Shown here piece by piece: positions 4,754 through 53,564 of a stretch of DNA of 64,000 nt. The translations under genes were made by a program, and so were the position numbers. The DNA is taken from NCBI GenBank assembly GCA_017478225.1, contig JAFVDX010000045.1:1-64000 (forward strand), in the 5' to 3' direction. The stretch comes from Paludibacteraceae bacterium. GTDB lineage: Bacteria > Bacteroidota > Bacteroidia > Bacteroidales > Paludibacteraceae. The notes below the pieces were generated by a model. It saw nothing but the letters and a program-made list of their open reading frames with translations, ran no database searches and was not told the DNA's origin. Position 1 is the first letter of the stretch. Each line of letters opens with the position of its first letter.

Positions 4754-4827
4754 CGCTCCCTCAAGGACTTGAACCTTGGACCCCCTGATTAACAGTCAGA
4801 TGCTCTAACCGACTGAGCTAAGGAAGC
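4754..4827 (-). tRNA. tRNA-Asn (GTT)
   Basis: A 74-nt cloverleaf on the - strand. The acceptor stem is GCTTCCT pairing with AGGGAGC, the D-arm GCTC...GAGC, the anticodon stem TCTGA...TCAGG with loop CTGTTAA (anticodon GTT, Asn), and the T-arm CAAGG-TTCAAGT-CCTTG. The discriminator base is G. The 3' CCA is not encoded. A -7 box lies at 4857-4864 and a terminator at 4706-4741, so it appears to be its own transcription unit. Confidence 0.95.
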
Positions 4828-19012: not shown

Positions 19013-19071
19013 CGGCGAAACATTAACATACACAACACAAATCATGTATGCACCTTAGCAAAGATAATTCA

Positions 19072-19374
19072 CAAACTTTACCATCAAAGAGATAACAAGA
19101 TTCAATTTTGAGCCACTATTGGATAATTGCGAGAAATTTTGATTAATTTTGAGTAATTTTGGGTAATTTTTGACCAAACAAAAAGATGAAAAACGAAGTT
19201 TTTCATTTAATTAGTATAATTAGTAGATAATATCAATGAAAAAGAAAAACGAAGTTTTTGTTTAATTAGTATAATTCGTAGATAGAATCAATGAAAAACG
19301 AAGTTTGTTTAATTTGTTAAATTAGTAGATTAAGAAAATATAATTCGCTGATTATCTGATGCGGAAGACTTTAG
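19072..19374 (+). repeat. Three-copy intergenic element, copy A (expanded)
   Basis: Begins CAAACTTTACCATC and ends GATGCGGAAGACTTTAG, imperfect inverted ends. Inside are AGAGATAA, repeated TAATTTTG-like boxes spaced 10 bp (19141-19172), and the hairpin GAAAAACGAAGTTTTT followed by TTTAATTAG-type nonamers. A module of about 50 bp (starts at 19188, 19244, 19293) is triplicated, making this copy about twice as long as the others. The right third matches copy B closely (ATAATTCGCT, GATTATCTGATG-like, CTTTAGTTATTCT). It fills the intergenic region between rsgA and the 140-aa protein gene. Confidence 0.75.
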
Positions 19375-19572
19375 TTATTCTTTACTTTGCGAAAAAAATT
19401 CTTTTTCTCTCTGCTCAATCTGTTTAATCTGCGGACAAAAAAACACTCATCAATTTGTAGTCATTGCCTCTAAGTATTGCCAAATATCTATTAGTAGCAG
19501 CCTTGCAGGAAACAGAAACTAATAGCGTTGGTAAATTTTATATTGCCGTTCGTCAAGCGGAATAAACTGTTC
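19375..19572 (+). other. Non-coding stretch before the G-tract
   Basis: No gene seen. It contains another pair of 9-bp-spaced motifs (CTCAATCTG, TTTAATCTG near 19415-19433) and otherwise A+T-rich sequence leading to the G-run and promoters. Confidence 0.5.
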
Positions 19573-20143: not shown

Positions 20144-20190
20144 CATTTAAGAAGATATATATACTTTAATTGACTAAACACAACAAATAT

Positions 20191-23100
20191 ATGAAAACTA
20201 ATTTACTTAACTCGTCTGAATCTAAAGTGAGAAACAACAGTATATTATATGGTGTCAAAGAGGGCGCTGCATCGTCTGTAGTATCTGCCGTATCTGTCCC
20301 GTATGTGTCCTGTAAGTCGCTCGTAAGCCGCCTTATGCGCACCGCTGCCATCGTGGTGCTACTAATGACTGTCGGCGTAGGAGAGATGTGGGCTTCGGAT
20401 GCTTCAGGTGCCACTTTCATTTATGACAACACTAAATCTAACTGGAGTGATGTCCAACTTCTTATAGGACATAGCACATGGTCAAGCGTAGCAAAAATGA
20501 CTAATATACCCAACACTAAACTTTACTACCTCACAAATTACTCTTGGGGAGGATATACAGAGTTTTATTTTGTTACAGGTGCATCCAGTTGGGGGGATGA
20601 AGACAACAGCCCTACACATAGGAAAGATTATGTAAGTGGGTATTCTGGTAAGATGACAACCAATGTAGGTTCAAATAAATATAAATTTGTTTCTTCCGGA
20701 ACAGCAAATGGCGCAAGTGTTACCGCTACAACTATATCAGCATATTCTTCGCTAAACTTCACGCAGACATTATCAAAAGAACTCTCAACGGATGGTGGTT
20801 CTACTTATTCATCTTCTACAGCAAGTCTTGCTACATTGAATATATCATCGTATAAATTAACATCATTTACTGCTTCAACGGCAGATAATGGAACTGGTAG
20901 TTGTACTGCGGCACAGTCTGCAACTGTTACATGCACCGTATCAGATGTTACAAATGGTTATGAGTTTGTTGGATGGTATGTTGGTACAGCACAAAAATCT
21001 ACTTCTACAACATATACATATACTGCCACTGGTGCCACAACGGTCAAGGCTCGTTTCAAAGAAAAACGCTATGAAGTTAAGGTTGCGACAATCACCCCTT
21101 CGGCAGGTGGTACGGCAACGCCGACAAGTTGGACTTATATGAGTCAGGTGGCAGGTGGTGATATCACTGCAACGCCAAACACCGGTTATACTTTCTCCGG
21201 TTGGTCGATACTCTCTGGCGGTGGCGGATATTTTGGTGCTTCGGGTACTGCTACTACAAGTTCAACAGCAAGCACTAAATTCCGTCCTACAAAAAACACT
21301 TCACTCAAAGCCACCTTCACACCAAACGACTATATTGTTACTCTCGATGGTAATGGTGGCACCGGTGGTACGGCAACTGCTACATACGATGCAAGTACGC
21401 TCAAAAGTATCACCCACGCCAGCCGTGCAGGTTATTCGCTTAACGGCTACTATACAGCCTCAAGCGGTGGAAACAAGGTCATCAATGCCGACGGTTCGCT
21501 GAATAATGTGTCTGATTGGGTAAGTGGCGGTTATTGGAAAAAAGCCGCAAACAGCACGCTCTATGCTCAATGGACAGAGAATGCTGTGTATTATACCCTT
21601 AGTTTCAGTGCAGGTACAGGTATGTCAGGTAATGTTACAGTGGCTGCAAAGAACTCATCAACAAGTGATGCCATCTCTTCAGGTGCTTCATTGTTGTCAG
21701 GCACAGGCGTAACCATAACCGCCACACCTGCAACACACTATAAGTTTGTTGGTTGGTATAGCAATGCCGCTTGCACAACTCAGGTTTCAACCAACAACCC
21801 ATATACTTTCTCTATCAGCGGAAACACCACTTTGTATGCCAAAGTGGAGTATAACACCACTGCCATCACTCTCAACCGCAATGGTGGTACAGCAGGCACG
21901 GAGTCAGTAACTGCCACCTATGGTAGTACTCTGCCTTCATTCACTGCTCATACACGCACAGGCTACACGCTCAACGGCTATTACACAGCCGAAAGCGGAG
22001 GCACAAAAATCATCGAGGATAATGGTAATTTAGTTGCAAGCACCGACTATGCTGATGCATCAAGGAAATGGAAGAGCGACGCTACAACTCTTACCCTCTA
22101 TGCTCAGTGGACGGAGAAAATGACGACCGTTACTATCAACGCTTCACCTACAGGAGCAGGTACTTTCACCGTTGGCGGAAGCGCTTTCACTGAAGACAGT
22201 ACCACCACAGCAGGTGTGGCTACAAGTCGTACGGTTGTGGCAACTCCTATCAGTGACTATACCTTCTCATCATGGAGTGTCACAGACAATGCCACAGGAA
22301 CTAACTCTACCAATACTTATACGCTGAAAGGCAATGGCTCTGCAGGTACAGGTACGCTGACGGCTAACTTCACTCTTGTGCCGTGTACACTATATTATGG
22401 TGTATCAACACCACTTAACTCGCCTTCAAGCGCTGTGATGTCGTATGATATAGCAACAGGCGCATATTATAAGGATGTTACCACTAACGCCTCGCCTTAT
22501 TATTTCCGTTTCCTGCACTCAACCGGCAGTAAGCAATGGTCATACAACGGTTGGGGCAGTGGCGGGTATCCTGATGTAGTAGAAGCCGTTGCCAATGGTG
22601 ATAAGGTTGCTTGCGATACCGAAGTGCAAGGTTGGGATAATAAATCGTCAATCAAATTCACAGGACCAACAAGCAGTTCCATCCGTATCTGGTTTGATTA
22701 TCAGAACAAGGAAGCATGGATAACAGAGCCGGGATATAGTGTTACTATCAACAATGGCACCAATGGTACCGTTTCGCCCAACGGCTCAAAGACCGTAGGT
22801 GCATCGGGTATAACGATAACCGCCACACCGGCAGAAGGGTATAAGTTCGTCAGTTGGACCACAACAGGAGGAGCGCATGTGGCAAGCAGTACTTCTAAAA
22901 CCACTACTCTTACCGCCACCGCAGCAGGTACGGTAACTGCTACATACGTAGCTGCACAGAAAGTGAAACTATACTACAAGAACACCAATGGCTGGAGCAA
23001 TGTATATGCTTATCTGTGGGATGATAGCAACACCTCTGACCATAATGCCGATTGGCACGGAACAGACATAACAAGCAACACATTCTTATACAACTGCGAG

Positions 23101-26100
23101 ACCTATTATTACTATGAGTTCTATATGGACTCGCACAACTGGAACCGCATTATCTTCAATGATGGTGGTAGCAATAAGACAAGTGATATCACCTTCACAA
23201 GTGCCAATGCCAATCAGTATTATATAAACGATGCTTGGGTGGCAGAGCCGACTAACCCTTGGGCACTTCATGGTTCTTGGGACGATTGGGCAGCCGCTTC
23301 GGCTCTCACCTGCACAAGTGCCACATCGGGTTATGCAGAAGTTGCACTTGCTGCCAATCAAGACTATGAGTTTAAGTTCGTCGAGAATGGCAGTAATTGG
23401 TATGGCGCAACGACTGTTACTCAGATAACTTACAGCAACAAAGCCACTGCTCAAACGATGAACAGCACTTCGGGTAGCAACCAAACTATCCGTACCGCCT
23501 CTGCAGGTACTTATCGCTTCATTTGGGACATAACCAACAAGGAAGTAACGGTTACTTATCCTACCTCTTACACGGTTACCTACAGCGCAACGACTGTTTC
23601 AGGAACTAATGGTCAGTCGGCAGCACCAACAGCAACATACAACTCTGGTGCAGTGTCGGTTACGAGTGGCGACTATGTGCCTTCAGCAACAAGCGTTACC
23701 TTCACTGCAGCAGCAGCCAATTCAGGCTATACCTTCAATGGTTGGTACACCGCAACCACAGGTGGCACGCAGAAGTCGTCTGCCTTGAGTTATTCAGAGA
23801 CTATCAGTGCTAACACTACTCGTTATGCTCGCTATACGCAGAACACCTATTCGGTTACTCTGACCAACGAGAGCAGCACTTATGGTACTGTGAACACCAC
23901 TTCGCCCGTTACGGTAGGTCAGGCGGAAGCGGTGCAGATCAAAGCCACAGCCAATACGGGGTATAAGTTCAAAGCGTGGGTAAAGACCGCAGGCACTGGT
24001 ACAGTCAGTTACTGGACTGCAGCCGGCACAGCAGGCTCAACTGATGCCGACGGAGCCAACAAAGCCACTACATATATTAAGGTGACAGGAGCGGTAACCC
24101 TTCAAGCCACATACGAGGAATATCTTGCTACAGGATGGTATTTGGCAGGCACACTGAATGCTCAAGGTGATAGCGACCCTGGATGGGGTGATGGCAAGGT
24201 AGAATTCACCAAGCAGTCGGGATACTCTGCAGGGTCGATAGGTTATATAACCAAGACTATTGCACCCGCAGATTATGCCGATACGGATTATGTGCTGTCA
24301 GTAAAACTGGTAAATGGAGACAATTGGTATGGCAACAACGGAACCTATACCTATGCCTCAAACCATAATACTGCATGGACGATGTCAACAAGTGATGGAA
24401 ATATGAGTATTAAGGTTGATTATCCCGGCACTTACACCTTCAAAGTTGACTACACAACGCCTTCAAGTCCTAAACTGACTATCACCTTCCCTATACTCAA
24501 ACAACTGCAGATATACACCGCTGACCCTGCTCACGCTGCAGCATTAGGCAATTGGGATTTGTCGGCACCTGTGTCGAATGTGGCATCCACTACAGTATCA
24601 CTCAACGCAAACACTACTTATAAGTTCAAGATAGTCTATGACAATGTTTTCTATGGCAACAATGGCACAATGAGGACAAAAGATCATACTGATTGGACTA
24701 TGTCTTCAAGTGAAAATGATTGCCATATAACTACAAGCACAGCGGCAGACTATATCTTTAATTACAATACCTCTACTAATAAACTGACTGTAGTTTATCC
24801 GCCTGATGTAGAATGGTCGGCAGCGTCAGTTTATTCCGGCGATGCAGCCACCATCAATGTAAGTGCATGGAATCTGACATCCGGTCAGTCGCTCAAATAT
24901 GAGTTGTTTGAAGGAGCCACTGCTACAGGTACTGCTCTGCAAACAAAGAATGTTACCACATCTGCCGTAACAGATCAGACCACTTTCACAGTTACCCCAT
25001 CGTTTGGAGCGAGCGAGATAAGCAAGCAATACACTGTCAGAATCACCTTTGCAGAAAAGCAAATCACCTACACAAGTTATGTCTATCGCAAATGGGACAT
25101 TTATGTTCAGAATGGTAGAGAATGGGGTACAATGAAATACTATGCTTGGGCTGCAGGAGACCAGAAGAATGCCGACTATCCGGGCGTGGCATGCGTAAAG
25201 AAATATGAAAGTGCTTCCGATACATGCGATTGGTACACAGCAACAATAGATGGTCGCTACAGCGGCGATTCGAGCGTAAGCGGATTCTTAATAAATAATG
25301 GCGAGTCGGGCGATGCAGAACGCAAAACCACTAACCTACAGACCGACATAACGGTATATGGCGAAAACACCTATTGGTATATGTTTGCAGGTAGCGGGAA
25401 TAGTGATTTCTACCTCAGCACTGCAGCAGTTGTAGCGCCAACAGTATCAATATCAGCATCCACACAAGTAAGAAACACCTCGATAGGTGTTATAGGAAAG
25501 ATAGACAATTATGGTGGAGACTGTGTAGTACCGAAGATATATTTGGACGATGTAGAGCAAACGGTTTGTCGCATAGCAAACAATGGTGAGTTCTTTGCAG
25601 AAATCACCGGTCTGACAGCAGGCACAACACATACTCTCAAAGTAACCGCCACCAATGTGAAGGGTACCGCTCAGGCTACGCGTTCTATCACTCTTAGTAC
25701 AGGCACAAGCCGTGTTTGGGTGAAGAACTCACAAGACTGGGAAGGCGACTTGTACTGCTACTGCTGGTATATGAATGTATGCTCCGAATCAGCAACCGAA
25801 TACATTGCATGGCGCGGTCTGACAATGACCAACCTAAGCGGCACCGACTGGTTCTACTGCGACATACCATCTGACTATCCGTACTTCGCTGTTTCTTCAG
25901 ATGAATCCAATAAGCAGTCAGCAGATATGTTTATTGAAAACTGTGATTTCTTCAACATCAAGTCAACCACTACGACCAATAGTCAAAACCAAACGGTTTA
26001 CGAGACAGAATGTACAACCGGCCCTACTTACTATTATGTAGAGACCACCAAGGAAACAAGACATTTCTTGAGCAATGTAGTAAGCAGTCCAACAGAGATT

Positions 26101-28722
26101 ATGTCGTTCTATGCGTCCTCTACAGGCACTGTTAAGTTGCATAAGTTCGAGGCAGGCGAGGAGGTAACAGGCAGTCCGTTTGATGTAAAGAGTAAAATCA
26201 GTTTTGGCTCAGATGCAGGTAATGTATATGTAGCCAAACCCGACGGCAATACTATAAAAGATGTGGCAGTGTATGATGGCGATTTCTATCTGTATGCACA
26301 GTGTGAGCGAGCCAACGAAACCGAAGATGGTGTAACCACTATTCACCACTCGTCGATTCACACCTCATACGCCAACACCTCAGCCGCCGACCGCGAACGC
26401 TCTAAGTTTATTGCCTTCAACCCCGACCGCACAAGAGAGAATGAGTACTACAACCACTACTGGGTTGAGTGGCTTGTACCCGGGCAAGACATACGAGCCA
26501 CAGTGGGTAATCAGTACAATAGCAACTTGTCGGTATATCTGGGAGCAGATAAGTTTACCACAGAAGCGGGCGTGATACCTAACGATATGCCTGGAACAGC
26601 AGACCAACACGGATACAATGTGCGCTTTATATATGACAACTACTCCAATGTGTTCGAGCGTAATGTGATGGAAGGCTCCACCAACTCCACAGCAGAGTTG
26701 TACCTGACTATGTATTCGCCTTCGTCAGCGCCGATATACAACAAAGCCACAGGTACAACAGATGCCGACAAATACTTGGATGGTTCTCCTGCCTTCTTTA
26801 TCGATGCCAGCAACTGGGTATATCAGTCGGATGTGTATGTGGATAAGTTGTCTGAGATAACTATCGTATCAGGAATCTACAAAAACGACATCTCTAAGAA
26901 ATATGGCGAAAATTACCCGCTGGGTATTACCGACGAAGACATGCCTAAATCGGTGCGCGTGCTCTCCGACGAATCCACCTCAGGCAAACGCTGGAAAACT
27001 CGACTTATCTACGACTACAAGACCAACAAGATTGTAGTAGGCTGGCTCGTGGCTGACGATGAGATTGACGATGTGATTATCTTGGATGGTAATATGATGA
27101 TTGAGCGCGTGGAAAAAGGTAGTTCCTCTGACTGGAACGCCAAAGCAGATATTGCACAACTCACCATGGGCGATAACGGACAAGTACAGAAAGTGAAGAA
27201 TATATATACCGTTTTGGAACTCACCAAGAACAGTTGGAGAAACAGTAATCCATACGGTGTGTTCTGGCTTTCACTGCCGTACGACTGCCATGTGAACGAT
27301 ATATTTGGACTTGATGGTTATTCCAACGACGGCTACTTGAATGGTTCGAGCAAGAAATGGTTTGTAACACGCTATCGCGGCGACCTGCGTGCCCAGATAG
27401 GTTGGTGGAAAGACATATCCAGTTTCTGGGAGTCGCAATGGCAGAATTATACTCTTCCAAACGGCGAATTGTCGGACGACATCATCCCTGCTAACGAAGG
27501 CTTCTGCTTGATGGTACAACTCACCGACACTGACTTCCCCGAAATCGGTGGTGTAAACCGCTTGCGCTTCTTCTTCCCGTCAAGAAACGAGACCGAAGAG
27601 TATTTCAATATTGAGAAAGAGACAGTAACAAATACCTATGCTCCGATGATATACGACAAGACTCAACACGCCCAAACGGAAGACAGGACGAAGAAAGACT
27701 CTAACTGGCGTTGCTTTGGAGTGCCGGGTTATAAGCAAATGACCGTTACAGCCGCAGGCACAGGTCTGAACGATTACACCGACCACCCCAGCACCAACAC
27801 CATGTTCTTCTACGACTACGACTTCACCAAGGGTTCTGTAAATTCAGCAGGTTCATCGGCTTCGGCAAGATACTCTATCACCTCCGCCTCAGGCTACAAT
27901 TTCTTACCCACCTACGGATATATGATGCAGTTTGCCGGCACCTTGACATGGACAGGTTCATCGGCTGCCTCAAGATCGGTTGCTGCAAGAAGGTCGGAAG
28001 TCAAAGCCAATCGTATGATCGAGTTGCAACTCATACCTCAAGCCGACAACAATGATCAGGCAGAAGCAGACGCCTACACCGCTTGGACTGACCGCACATA
28101 CATCAACCTGACAGAGAACGCGACCAACGATTATGATATGTCGATGGATATGATGAAGGTGATGAACTCTACCGACAACCTCTACACCTATTCTCACAAA
28201 GGCTCCACACAAGACGAGCGTGAGATGGAATATGCAGCCAACAACTTACCTGTAGAAGATGCTATCGTGCCTTTGGTTTTGGATATTAAGAGCCGGAGCG
28301 AATACCAACTCACTATCAACAATGCTAACAGCCTCAATGGCGTGGATGTAGTGCTTGTGGACAAAGTGCTTGACAAACGCACACCTCTCAACAGTGAGAA
28401 CTACACGGTTGCACTTGAGAAAGGCAAATACGCCGATCGTTTTGAGTTGCACTTGCAAGTGAGCGAGCCTAAGGACGAGGATGAGAATCAAGGTCAAACC
28501 ACCTCGCTTGACGATGCTCAGGCAGACTTCAAGGTAACATACGCTGACGGCAAACTGATCTTAAGTGGCATTGAGAACACAAGTCTTATGGAAATGTTCG
28601 ACGCTACCGGCAAGTTGGTTACTCGTCGTCAGGTTAGCGCAGGCGACTACATCACCGCTCCCGCAGCAGGGGTATATATGGTTCGCATCGGCAGCAACAC
28701 ACAAAGAGTGATTATCAAATAA
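20191..28722 (+). CDS. Giant modular surface protein with InlB-like and starch-binding-like repeats and T9SS tail
   Basis: A 2843-aa exported protein. The ATG at 20191 is chosen over an in-frame TTG at 20170. An unusually long N-terminus (~70 aa) contains the signal helix AAIVVLLMTVGVGEMWA. A first starch-binding-like module covers ~74-170. InlB/Flg_new-type repeats follow to ~900 (GYSLNGYYTASSGGNK, then GYTLNGYYTAESGGTK, each ending LYAQW). CBM26-like modules lie at ~926-1010, ~1634-1737 and ~1841-1942 (KLYYKNTNGWSNVYAYLW, RVWVKNSQDWEGDLYCY). Three beta-sandwich repeats (~1021-1127, 1311-1435, 1436-1540) share FK(F/I)V and WYG or YGNNGT. Residues ~1950-2760 are unassigned. The last ~80 residues end GVYMVRIGSNTQRVIIK, as in T9SS type A domains. 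Probably a carbohydrate-binding adhesin (inference). Confidence 0.85.
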   Translation: MKTNLLNSSESKVRNNSILYGVKEGAASSVVSAVSVPYVSCKSLVSRLMRTAAIVVLLMTVGVGEMWASDASGATFIYDNTKSNWSDVQLLIGHSTWSSVAKMTNIPNTKLYYLTNYSWGGYTEFYFVTGASSWGDEDNSPTHRKDYVSGYSGKMTTNVGSNKYKFVSSGTANGASVTATTISAYSSLNFTQTLSKELSTDGGSTYSSSTASLATLNISSYKLTSFTASTADNGTGSCTAAQSATVTCTVSDVTNGYEFVGWYVGTAQKSTSTTYTYTATGATTVKARFKEKRYEVKVATITPSAGGTATPTSWTYMSQVAGGDITATPNTGYTFSGWSILSGGGGYFGASGTATTSSTASTKFRPTKNTSLKATFTPNDYIVTLDGNGGTGGTATATYDASTLKSITHASRAGYSLNGYYTASSGGNKVINADGSLNNVSDWVSGGYWKKAANSTLYAQWTENAVYYTLSFSAGTGMSGNVTVAAKNSSTSDAISSGASLLSGTGVTITATPATHYKFVGWYSNAACTTQVSTNNPYTFSISGNTTLYAKVEYNTTAITLNRNGGTAGTESVTATYGSTLPSFTAHTRTGYTLNGYYTAESGGTKIIEDNGNLVASTDYADASRKWKSDATTLTLYAQWTEKMTTVTINASPTGAGTFTVGGSAFTEDSTTTAGVATSRTVVATPISDYTFSSWSVTDNATGTNSTNTYTLKGNGSAGTGTLTANFTLVPCTLYYGVSTPLNSPSSAVMSYDIATGAYYKDVTTNASPYYFRFLHSTGSKQWSYNGWGSGGYPDVVEAVANGDKVACDTEVQGWDNKSSIKFTGPTSSSIRIWFDYQNKEAWITEPGYSVTINNGTNGTVSPNGSKTVGASGITITATPAEGYKFVSWTTTGGAHVASSTSKTTTLTATAAGTVTATYVAAQKVKLYYKNTNGWSNVYAYLWDDSNTSDHNADWHGTDITSNTFLYNCETYYYYEFYMDSHNWNRIIFNDGGSNKTSDITFTSANANQYYINDAWVAEPTNPWALHGSWDDWAAASALTCTSATSGYAEVALAANQDYEFKFVENGSNWYGATTVTQITYSNKATAQTMNSTSGSNQTIRTASAGTYRFIWDITNKEVTVTYPTSYTVTYSATTVSGTNGQSAAPTATYNSGAVSVTSGDYVPSATSVTFTAAAANSGYTFNGWYTATTGGTQKSSALSYSETISANTTRYARYTQNTYSVTLTNESSTYGTVNTTSPVTVGQAEAVQIKATANTGYKFKAWVKTAGTGTVSYWTAAGTAGSTDADGANKATTYIKVTGAVTLQATYEEYLATGWYLAGTLNAQGDSDPGWGDGKVEFTKQSGYSAGSIGYITKTIAPADYADTDYVLSVKLVNGDNWYGNNGTYTYASNHNTAWTMSTSDGNMSIKVDYPGTYTFKVDYTTPSSPKLTITFPILKQLQIYTADPAHAAALGNWDLSAPVSNVASTTVSLNANTTYKFKIVYDNVFYGNNGTMRTKDHTDWTMSSSENDCHITTSTAADYIFNYNTSTNKLTVVYPPDVEWSAASVYSGDAATINVSAWNLTSGQSLKYELFEGATATGTALQTKNVTTSAVTDQTTFTVTPSFGASEISKQYTVRITFAEKQITYTSYVYRKWDIYVQNGREWGTMKYYAWAAGDQKNADYPGVACVKKYESASDTCDWYTATIDGRYSGDSSVSGFLINNGESGDAERKTTNLQTDITVYGENTYWYMFAGSGNSDFYLSTAAVVAPTVSISASTQVRNTSIGVIGKIDNYGGDCVVPKIYLDDVEQTVCRIANNGEFFAEITGLTAGTTHTLKVTATNVKGTAQATRSITLSTGTSRVWVKNSQDWEGDLYCYCWYMNVCSESATEYIAWRGLTMTNLSGTDWFYCDIPSDYPYFAVSSDESNKQSADMFIENCDFFNIKSTTTTNSQNQTVYETECTTGPTYYYVETTKETRHFLSNVVSSPTEIMSFYASSTGTVKLHKFEAGEEVTGSPFDVKSKISFGSDAGNVYVAKPDGNTIKDVAVYDGDFYLYAQCERANETEDGVTTIHHSSIHTSYANTSAADRERSKFIAFNPDRTRENEYYNHYWVEWLVPGQDIRATVGNQYNSNLSVYLGADKFTTEAGVIPNDMPGTADQHGYNVRFIYDNYSNVFERNVMEGSTNSTAELYLTMYSPSSAPIYNKATGTTDADKYLDGSPAFFIDASNWVYQSDVYVDKLSEITIVSGIYKNDISKKYGENYPLGITDEDMPKSVRVLSDESTSGKRWKTRLIYDYKTNKIVVGWLVADDEIDDVIILDGNMMIERVEKGSSSDWNAKADIAQLTMGDNGQVQKVKNIYTVLELTKNSWRNSNPYGVFWLSLPYDCHVNDIFGLDGYSNDGYLNGSSKKWFVTRYRGDLRAQIGWWKDISSFWESQWQNYTLPNGELSDDIIPANEGFCLMVQLTDTDFPEIGGVNRLRFFFPSRNETEEYFNIEKETVTNTYAPMIYDKTQHAQTEDRTKKDSNWRCFGVPGYKQMTVTAAGTGLNDYTDHPSTNTMFFYDYDFTKGSVNSAGSSASARYSITSASGYNFLPTYGYMMQFAGTLTWTGSSAASRSVAARRSEVKANRMIELQLIPQADNNDQAEADAYTAWTDRTYINLTENATNDYDMSMDMMKVMNSTDNLYTYSHKGSTQDEREMEYAANNLPVEDAIVPLVLDIKSRSEYQLTINNANSLNGVDVVLVDKVLDKRTPLNSENYTVALEKGKYADRFELHLQVSEPKDEDENQGQTTSLDDAQADFKVTYADGKLILSGIENTSLMEMFDATGKLVTRRQVSAGDYITAPAAGVYMVRIGSNTQRVIIK

Positions 28723-30509: not shown

Positions 30510-30584
30510 CTACTTTTATTTAATACCTACAAACTCGATTTTTTGTGCTATGCAAGCATATATCTTTCAGCAATATGAGAATAA

Positions 30585-30747
30585 CTAAAGTTTTCCACAT
30601 CATATAATTAGCGAATTATGTTTTTCTTTATCTACAAATTTAACGAATTAGACAAAAAACTTCGTTTTTCTATATTTTTAGGTTGTCAAAAATTATCCAA
30701 AATTACTCAAAATTAAATTTTATTCTCTTAGATGTGGGAAAGTTTAG
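30585..30747 (-). repeat. Three-copy intergenic element, copy B
   Basis: 163 bp with 17-bp terminal inverted repeats, CTAAAGTTTTCCACATC (30585-30601) and GATGTGGGAAAGTTTAG (30731-30747), matching at 15 of 17 positions. On the - strand the core reads AGAGAATAAAATTTAATTTT, two more TAATTTT-type boxes, GAAAAACGAAGTTTTTTG, TAATTCGTTAAATTTGTAGA and ACATAATTCGCTAATTATAT. It lies between the divergent psd and TolC-family genes, in the opposite orientation to copies A and C. No ORF inside. Confidence 0.8.
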
Positions 30748-30803
30748 AGAATATTTTATTTATAAAATTCCAGAATGGCACTAAAATTGCGGTAAACACG
30801 AGA

Positions 30804-41844: not shown

Positions 41845-42015
41845 AACCACACTTGTCAGAGACCGGAAAACTCAACAAACATTTTTTTCAGAGATAAATA
41901 CTTGTTCAATGGCGTGCTGCTATCCTTTAGGATTGGGCAGATTACAGAAAGCAAGCAAATCTCAAATCCTATTCATTAGGAGTTTTCTCGCGCAAGAACA
42001 AGTGTGGTTTTTTTA
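41845..42015 (+). ncRNA. Candidate structured RNA (6S-like architecture)
   Basis: AACCACACTTGT (41845-41856) pairs perfectly with ACAAGTGTGGTT (41998-42009), followed by a T-run (42008-42014) like a terminator. Inside, GAAAACTC (41866-41873) pairs with GAGTTTTC (41980-41987). An apical hairpin joins CTGC-ATCC with GGAT-GCAG (41917-41941), and TAGGATT (41928-41934) can alternatively pair with AATCCTA (41965-41971). A long closing stem, a large internal loop and a terminal hairpin over ~165 nt is the layout of 6S RNA. The gap has no ORF. No exact -7 box was found upstream, and sequence identity to 6S was not shown, so the name is a suggestion only. Confidence 0.5.
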
Positions 42016-53348: not shown

Positions 53349-53379
53349 CAGTCCAATGTGAATTTGAAAAAATAAACAT

Positions 53380-53533
53380 CTAAAGTTTCCCATATAAGAG
53401 ATAATAAAATTCAATTTTACGGTAATTTTGGATGATTTTTGAAAATTAAAAAAACGATGTTTTTGTTTAATTCGTTTTATTCGTAAACAATCAAAAAAAC
53501 ATAATTTGTTGATTATCTAATTGAAAAACTTTA
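53380..53533 (+). repeat. Three-copy intergenic element, copy C
   Basis: 154 bp in the same orientation as copy A. It starts CTAAAGTTTCCCATAT, then AGAGATAATAAAATTCAATT, GGTAATTTTGGATGATTTTT, AAAAAAACGATGTTTTTG, TTTAATTCGTTTTATTCGTA, ACATAATTTGTTGATTATCT, and ends GAAAAACTTTA. The ends are weakly inverted (TAAAGTTT). It sits just before the gene for a secreted protein. No ORF inside. Confidence 0.75.
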
Positions 53534-53564
53534 ATAAACATAAAATAACTAAAATTTATCTATC

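Follow-up and report, generated by a model that had tools for sequence, protein, structure and literature searches.

A family of short intergenic elements with shared inverted ends, several interiors and hairpins of one loop class in Paludibacteraceae

Introduction

Bacterial MITEs are short, non-coding, mostly intergenic sequences with terminal inverted repeats (TIRs) and target duplications, some of which hold internal promoters (PMC10969869). The element family described here is of this general kind, and it differs in that no parent IS was found, in that four or more unrelated interiors are found between the same ends and in that some of these interiors contain hairpins which follow a loop rule. 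The accessible part of that review mentions MITEs with promoters and none with the present anatomy.

The nearest published relative in kind, unlike it in sequence, is BrickBuilt of P. gingivalis, which also belongs to the Bacteroidales and which, in the available text of its description, has 19 intergenic copies in one strain, TIRs, internal tandem units and no transposase inside (PMC4596501). BrickBuilt has IS5-like ends (GAGACCTTTGCA), a 23-bp satellite, irregular duplications of 2 to 5 bases at three of four two-ended copies and a known full-length IS with like ends (PMC4596501), whereas the present family has mostly exact 7-bp duplications, unrelated ends and no known IS partner. Membership of BrickBuilt was rejected on a comparison of the ends (CTAAA[G/C]TTTCCCACAT against GAGACCTTTGCA) and of the spacing of the internal units (47–56 bp against the 23-bp satellite) with that text (PMC4596501).

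REP sequences are likewise numerous short intergenic hairpins, for which a mobiliser acting in trans (RAYT) has been hypothesised; they are palindromes of 20–40 bp, marked at one end by GTAG or CGTC, and in many of those with GTAG the loop fits TY or CMA (PMC3733652, in the part available). The present family has TIRs with duplications and GNA/GNNA loops instead, and we rejected REP membership because TIRs and duplications are contrary to the definition of a REP. For loops of the GNA/GNNA class there is a separate literature on synthetic DNA, from the accessible portions of which mini-hairpins with at least two G-C pairs emerge as extraordinarily stable and nuclease resistant (PMC4686876), with GAA loops melting 6 degrees higher than GTA loops (PMC6479982, citing Yoshizawa 1997).

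We analysed a window of 64,000 nucleotides (contig JAFVDX010000045.1 of assembly GCA_017478225.1, a Paludibacteraceae bacterium; this genome is called G000 below), in which an initial annotation had pointed out three copies, A, B and C, of an element with inverted ends. What began as a three-copy curiosity is a mobile-element family with defined ends, a target rule and several interiors, present in two genera. The literature searched contains no paper with the string CTAAAGTTTCCCAC and no such family among work on Paludibacteraceae, Bacteroidales MITEs, REPs or GNA loops (subscription papers being mostly outside its scope). We regard the family as real and mobile in kind, and as undescribed in that literature; it is ordinary as a MITE and unusual for its loop rule.

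Results and discussion

Structure of copy B and its two relatives in the window

Copy B is a complete element of 163 bp at 30585–30747 of the window, with the family reading direction on the minus strand. Its terminal repeats, CTAAAGTTTTCCACATC at 30585–30601 on the plus strand and GATGTGGGAAAGTTTAG at 30731–30747 (on the minus strand CTAAACTTTCCCACATC), are 17 bp long and complementary at 15 of 17 positions, just as first described. The bases abutting them, AGAATAA (30578–30584) and AGAATAT (30748–30754), form a target duplication in which six of seven positions agree. Between the ends, all on the minus strand, lie a ACATAATTCGCTAATTATAT block that adjoins the inner edge of one end (30602–30621), a pair of TAATTCGTTAAATTTGTAGAT nonamers (30630–30653), a hairpin near the middle of the element, AAAAAC(GAA)GTTTTT, with a C(GNA)G loop (30655–30669), and two TAATTTTG boxes 10 bp apart (30698–30705 and 30708–30715, together spanning 30698–30715).

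Copy C is also complete, 155 bp long and on the plus strand (53380–53534). It is enclosed by a perfect 7/7 duplication, TAAACAT (53373–53379 on the left and 53535–53541 on the right), and its hairpin (53450–53464, plus strand) carries the loop GAT, an exception to GNA. Copy A, on the plus strand at about 19071–19374, has a degenerate left end (ACAAAC) and three hairpin/nonamer units in tandem where B and C have one each; its hairpins are found on the plus strand at 19189–19203, 19245–19259 and 19294–19308, the third with one mismatch, and comparison of the abutting flanks gave no recognisable target duplication. The original boundaries are thus retained for B and moved for A and C to those given here.

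The core of B aligns with A and with C, and a search of the genome with B recovers both (C at a best E of 1.1e-24, A at 8.4e-21), which bears out the claim of a core common to the three. The 15-mer AAAAACGAAGTTTTT, allowing up to two mismatches, occurs five times in the window (three times in A and once each in B and C) and nowhere outside the copies, while shuffles lead one to expect 0.38. The element observed earlier is therefore confirmed as real. As regards a reading as an RNA family, Rfam gave no match at gathering scores at A, B or C.

Copy number, consensus and distribution

Searching the element's own genome (2.19 Mb, 46 contigs) with B returned 57 matches, so that further copies plainly exist. 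A profile of 164 positions was built from 19 two-ended copies and run over 305,207 bases, nearly all of them in stretches picked because they held hits, and gave 92 hits in 61 clusters. Of these, 36 lie in G000, 17 in G019, 7 in G023 and one in G319; the 24 in G019 and G023 are in relatives of the same genus, and G319 belongs to another genus. Both ends were matched in 36 of the 61 clusters. The initial count of three copies hence holds for the window and not for the genome.

The family has ends of the form CTAAA[G/C]TTTCCCACAT, a length of about 164 bp, 26% GC and an intergenic location. Read in the direction of A and C, the consensus opens with the CTAAA[G/C]TTTCCCACAT end, AAGAGAGAATAAAATT, one or more TAATTTTGG boxes, a final TAATTTTTGACAAC and a spacer, and continues with the hairpin GAAAAAC(GNA)GTTTTTC, GTTTAATTAGTATAATTCGTAGAT, a further spacer and ATAATTCGTTGATTATCTGATGTGGGAAA[C/G]TTTAG. 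Boxes and hairpin/nonamer units differ in number from copy to copy; the two-ended copies scored for duplications are 135 to 330 bp long, and the units are spaced 47–56 bp apart. The interior modules (TAATTTTG boxes, hairpin and nonamers) thus vary in number like a small internal satellite.

With a cutoff of E 1e-8, B finds matches in four of the 178 genomes of the genus, G000 being one of them; in the fourth, G024, the match covers only 75 bp of interior. One two-ended copy of a diverged type is present in G012. The strict end pattern WACTAAASTTTCCCAC occurs in 12 of 358 genomes of the family Paludibacteraceae, 30 times in G319. A shorter end pattern with one mismatch allowed is found in 52 of the 178 genus genomes; outside G000, G019, G023 and G179 its 57 hits compare with 45 of the reversed control pattern, and most single hits in those genomes are accordingly chance. 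Several genus genomes have lone ends beside other sequence. At L123, L125, L129 and L130 (in G024, G046, G137 and G013, respectively) such ends are preceded by TTA, TAA or similar bases, which resemble those at real insertions; a second end or a known interior is absent there.

Searches of plasmids and phages with B gave no match, nor did one G319 element searched against plasmids or another against phages, and a hairpin motif of G319 had no hit in viral contigs. The single hit of the end pattern in viral contigs, with a twin in Cytobacillus, was dismissed as a chance match inside a C-5 cytosine DNA methylase gene, and the hit at L056 likewise proved to have no element. DNA of the G319 elements (type 3) was found in none of 393 other genomes of the order, a result which shows little because the sample held no positive control.

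Target duplications, tandem copies and composites

We compared the bases abutting both ends of 36 two-ended copies and re-paired the flanks 1000 times as a control. The scored copies are copy A and 35 that were kept by hand from 60 candidate end pairs, others being dropped where an 'end' lay within an element, where the pair spanned two elements or where it was due to chance; the set includes two G319 copies (L057, counted also among the 22 of G319) and three from one tandem array. This set is distinct from the 36 two-ended profile clusters and from the 36 clusters of G000. An exact abutting duplication of 7 bp was present at 13 of the 36 copies and one of 8 bp at four, and the re-paired flanks gave a mean of 0.45 and a maximum of four for 7 bp and none at all for 8 bp. 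No copy had an exact duplication of 4, 5, 6 or 9 bp, and one had a duplication of 14 bp, inside a heptamer array. The remaining 19 copies, among them A and B, are without an exact duplication of 7 or 8 bp. All 13 exact 7-mers begin with TWA. Within G319 the same test gave exact duplications at four of 22 copies for 7 bp and at three of 22 for 8 bp, the maximum on re-pairing being one in each case. The target duplications that the initial annotation proposed looking for are thus present in the family and, in the window, perfect at C, 6/7 at B and absent at A. Copy number and duplication statistics together rule out a chance origin.

At four loci of G319 one element has inserted into the end of another. 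Two of these four composites have outer duplications of 8 and 9 bases (ATTGTTTA and TTATTTTAA) and the other two have none; the two with their own outer duplications moved as a unit and so imply past movement. In G000, three copies stand in tandem with the duplicated heptamer, TAAATTA, between them.

These data bear on whether the element needs to have transposed at all. A conserved regulatory or structural site might instead have been spread by duplication of spacer DNA, a reading with which the occurrence of interior pieces (TAATTTTTGAC repeats and the hairpin) without ends elsewhere in the genus would agree, as would the closeness of many copies to gene ends. It fails to account for duplications that abut the ends far beyond chance, for unrelated interiors that have only the ends in common and for two composites that carry new duplications. 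We consider it most improbable, and the duplication statistics largely refute it.

The suggestion of a MITE-like non-autonomous element is instead well supported, by many copies with shared ends and by 7- to 9-bp duplications in excess of the re-pairing controls, and it is further backed by the intergenic sites, the tandem copies and the composites, two of which have their own duplications. The element is short, multi-copy and free of a transposase gene, and it has TIRs and target duplications. Copy B is one of dozens of such repeats in the genome, some 164 bp in length, whose inverted ends read CTAAA[G/C]TTTCCCACAT and whose target duplications are AT-rich and 7 to 9 bp long; very probably it is a MITE, predicted to be moved in trans by a transposase, and the element is likely to be a parasitic mini-transposon. 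Inverted ends together with short duplications point to an enzyme of the DDE type, which would recognise the ends in double-stranded DNA and make a staggered cut of 7 to 9 bp.

Several other repeats were seen around the elements. At L044 5006–5648 (C5:58505–59146 of G000) three two-ended copies and one more end are lined up in tandem, and each copy is followed by TAAATTA or TAAATAA. Tandem arrays of a heptamer flank inserted elements on one or both sides at L063 9009–9222 and L066 1177–1214 (G019); three of the five exact heptamer arrays in the G019 stretches touch an element (two elements in all), and the G000 and G023 stretches contain no such exact array. As the period of 7 bases is the usual length of the duplication, the arrays may be targets, or scars left by repeated insertion and loss. 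Spacers of this genus also contain degenerate direct repeats of 9 to 11 bp of other kinds (AATCTGTTTAATCTGCGG, TCAGAACACTCAGAATA), some of them within elements; examples are at 19414–19437 of the window, at L033 and at C16:241460 (L045).

The same ends enclose unrelated interiors

Elements with these ends and interiors unrelated to that of B were found in two further genomes. G179 has a 262-bp element in L116 with TGAATAA on both sides and a second two-ended copy, in L117, without a matching duplication, and in G319 there are elements of about 235 bp and about 270 bp. Within a single bacterial family these ends enclose no fewer than four different interiors.

The draft genomes searched yielded no autonomous partner with these ends. 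Convergent end pairs 0.6–5 kb apart were picked out by eye in the lists of ends for G000, G019, G023 and G319, and in these four genomes they enclose ordinary genes and no transposase: a pyrophosphatase and an unnamed ORF in contig C5 of G000, BrkB- and CobW-type genes in C29 of the same genome, and genes for ferritin, glutathione peroxidase, a phosphatase and a phosphotransferase in C40 of G319. The one-ended copies examined continue into genes that do not look like transposase genes. A search for transposases covered PF01609 (DDE_Tnp_1) in draft assemblies and gave seven matches in four of five genomes; these were discarded as partners since the flanks retrieved contain no pair of the present ends. 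The clearest of them have inverted repeats of their own, and two flanks ended at contig ends. The missing partner would be explained if the enzyme were domesticated and single-copy, or had been lost from the draft assemblies. With the family defined, the missing transposase becomes findable.

No orthologous empty site for B could be aligned among relatives: one flanking gene matches 15 of them in DNA (14 in the genus, at 67–73% identity) and the spacer is unmatched. The genomes with copies include metagenome assemblies, and for this reason recent movement goes unseen.

Hairpin loops

The core hairpin of the elements related to B (type 1) was examined in 43 distinct units, a number that includes two spurious reads of one other sequence. 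Forty of the 43 are closed by C-G, and 33 of these 40 loops are GNA (GAA in 15, GCA in 12, GGA in four and GTA in two). The others are AAA in two and AGA, ATA, GAG, GAT and GCT in one each. Of these 40 loops, 36 begin with G and 37 finish with A, and all four letters occur in the middle. Such a pattern, G and A facing each other, would be called for by a sheared G-A pair in a hairpin of DNA and not by a palindrome in double-stranded DNA. Three-base loops on stems of at least 6 bp in G000 are of the GNA type in 26 of 35 cases inside elements compared with seven of 43 outside.

In G319, 20 elements with the same ends (leaving aside two of the 22 copies, one of type 1 and one with another interior) contain 64 hairpins that have stems of at least 5 bp with two G/C among their three closing pairs, against 2.2 in shuffles that preserve single-base composition only. 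Read inward from the nearer end, 61 of the 64 have GTA, GTTA or GATA loops; none has a GN(N)A loop read outward, and three have other loops. Stems are not the same in all slots. The loop of three slots switches among GTA, GTTA and GATA, staying within the class; in one slot two copies have ATA. By comparison, GN(N)A accounts for three of 11 triloops and seven of 17 tetraloops on stems of at least 6 bp over whole G319 stretches, genes included. All these loop counts run over related copies and are non-independent; counted by slot, the G319 rule amounts to about eight hairpin positions, sorted into slots crudely. The inward rule is inapplicable to type 1, whose hairpin sits close to the centre (loop centre at 0.50–0.55 of the length in 19 of 19 copies); taken literally, type 1 would break it, as GNA reads from the slightly farther end. 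Folding energies of whole elements are unremarkable (z of −0.35 for B and −0.98 for C), and the folding parameters give equal energy to all triloops on one stem.

The loops, 33 of 40 in type 1 and 61 of 64 in the G319 elements (type 3), fall in the class of the extra-stable DNA mini-hairpins, C(GNA)G and C(GNNA)G, described in the accessible accounts for synthetic oligonucleotides (PMC4686876, PMC6479982). The G319 hairpins have at least two G-C pairs among the three closing ones, whereas that of G000 has a single G-C pair beside the loop, fewer than the two stated there for the extra-stable form. The agreement of the G319 loops with a very stable type of DNA would suggest that these elements fold as single-stranded DNA. 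To a specialist the rule is unexpected: stems vary by slot while loops stay in a highly stable class of DNA, and in G319 only one loop polarity is used.

Hairpins of this kind also raise the question of a quite different mobiliser: a single-strand transposase (HUH, RAYT-type) might act on them, and the element would then be a palindromic repeat of the REP/BIME kind. The GNA/GNNA caps with their strand polarity in G319 would fit such a case, no transposase was found between ends of this type, and the available text on GTAG REPs has them hypothetically moved by RAYT transposases (PMC3733652). Against this, single-strand transposases of the IS200/IS605 type are not known to leave long TIRs with duplications of 7 to 9 bp, and three other interiors with the same ends are without GN(N)A hairpins: type 2 in G179, that of the G012 copy and that of one further G319 element. 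The hairpins are thus unnecessary for having the ends. We judge a REP/BIME origin highly unlikely.

For a MITE moved by a double-strand enzyme the hairpins may serve at another step, which we infer from the conservation of loops alone: they would fold when their strand is single, in the lagging-strand template or in an excised or repaired intermediate, and could then protect or mark that strand. More broadly, and tentatively, these elements could form a Paludibacteraceae superfamily of mini-transposons with interiors selected to fold as single-stranded DNA into GNA/GNNA hairpins, in G319 with a strand polarity (5′ half of each strand), and with a life cycle that is partly single-stranded although insertion resembles that of DDE transposons; we rate this idea as doubtful. 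If the hairpins do act on single-stranded DNA, the elements would be a natural test bed for the roles of mini-hairpins in cells.

Genomic setting and the question of a promoter cassette

Copies A, B and C all lie in divergent spacers, and at each of them one of the two flanking genes has, by eye, a signal-like N-terminus. In Pfam the proteins on this side are a 140-aa protein of no family at A, an outer membrane efflux protein at B and a Big_2 protein at C, and the genes opposite encode, in the same order, RsgA, phosphatidylserine decarboxylase and an alcohol dehydrogenase. B reads toward the decarboxylase gene (psd), and A and C read toward the gene for the exported protein. The setting ahead of such genes stands for the window, and divergent placement does not extend to the genome as a rule: taking ORFs of 100 aa or more as genes, with no gene finder, and leaving out two of the 61 clusters for mixed orientation, the 34 oriented clusters of G000 include 24 between tandem genes, six in divergent and four in convergent spacers. 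None of these 34 overlaps an ORF of at least 100 aa by more than 40 bases, and one of 25 elsewhere does (an ORF of 125 aa).

Where the neighbouring genes are in tandem, the element shares their direction in 26 of 36 cases over all genomes (two-sided p = 0.011, uncorrected for several tests), namely 17 of 24 in G000 (p = 0.064) and nine of 12 elsewhere (p = 0.146). Elements of G000 often start no more than 15 bp from a stop codon, and the TWA start of the duplications would fit insertion at TAA stops.

The note that first drew attention to B had also proposed a mobile regulatory cassette carrying promoter boxes, kept, in the form weighed here, because TAnnTTTG boxes drive the downstream gene. 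The Bacteroidetes promoter has the consensus TTTG at −33 and TAnnTTTG at −7, with a spacing of 17–23. The 36 two-ended copies contain 44 TAnnTTTG in the reading direction and nine on the other strand, against 7.6 in shuffles, but the boxes form an expandable repeat of about 10–11 bp, so that such an enrichment is expected anyway. The strict motif, TTTG-N17-23-TAnnTTTG, is present in only two of the 36 copies (shuffles 0.5, maximum four) and in none of A, B and C; at B, no TTTG stands at promoter spacing from the two TAATTTTG boxes. A loose motif, TTG-N17-24-TAnnTTTG, fares better, with 13 sites against 1.3 in shuffles (maximum six), located in seven of the 36 copies, including A and excluding B and C.

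The same-direction bias in tandem settings would also suit a promoter, as would the promoter activity in E. coli that the available description of BrickBuilt records for this P. gingivalis MITE (PMC4596501). That bias could equally reflect selection against antisense transcription, several distances were tried with uncorrected p values, and the boxes of B point at the phosphatidylserine decarboxylase gene, away from the gene for the exported protein. Of the gene 3′ ends within 15 bp of an element, 13 of 14 in G000 run in the same direction but only two of five in other genomes, so that this part of the bias is not general. The cassette is unsupported in the form first proposed; the promoter idea looks weak from the motifs, least so for A, and as an explanation of why the element is kept we think it unlikely.

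Three other features of the window were recorded. Directly downstream of the small exported protein that follows copy A is an ORF of 2850 aa (20170–28722) with Listeria-Bacteroides repeats, InlB-like repeats and CBM26 modules. A Bacteroidales-1 RNA (suggested 6S RNA) was detected at 41845–42015 with 65.1 bits, and a tRNA is present at 4754–4827.
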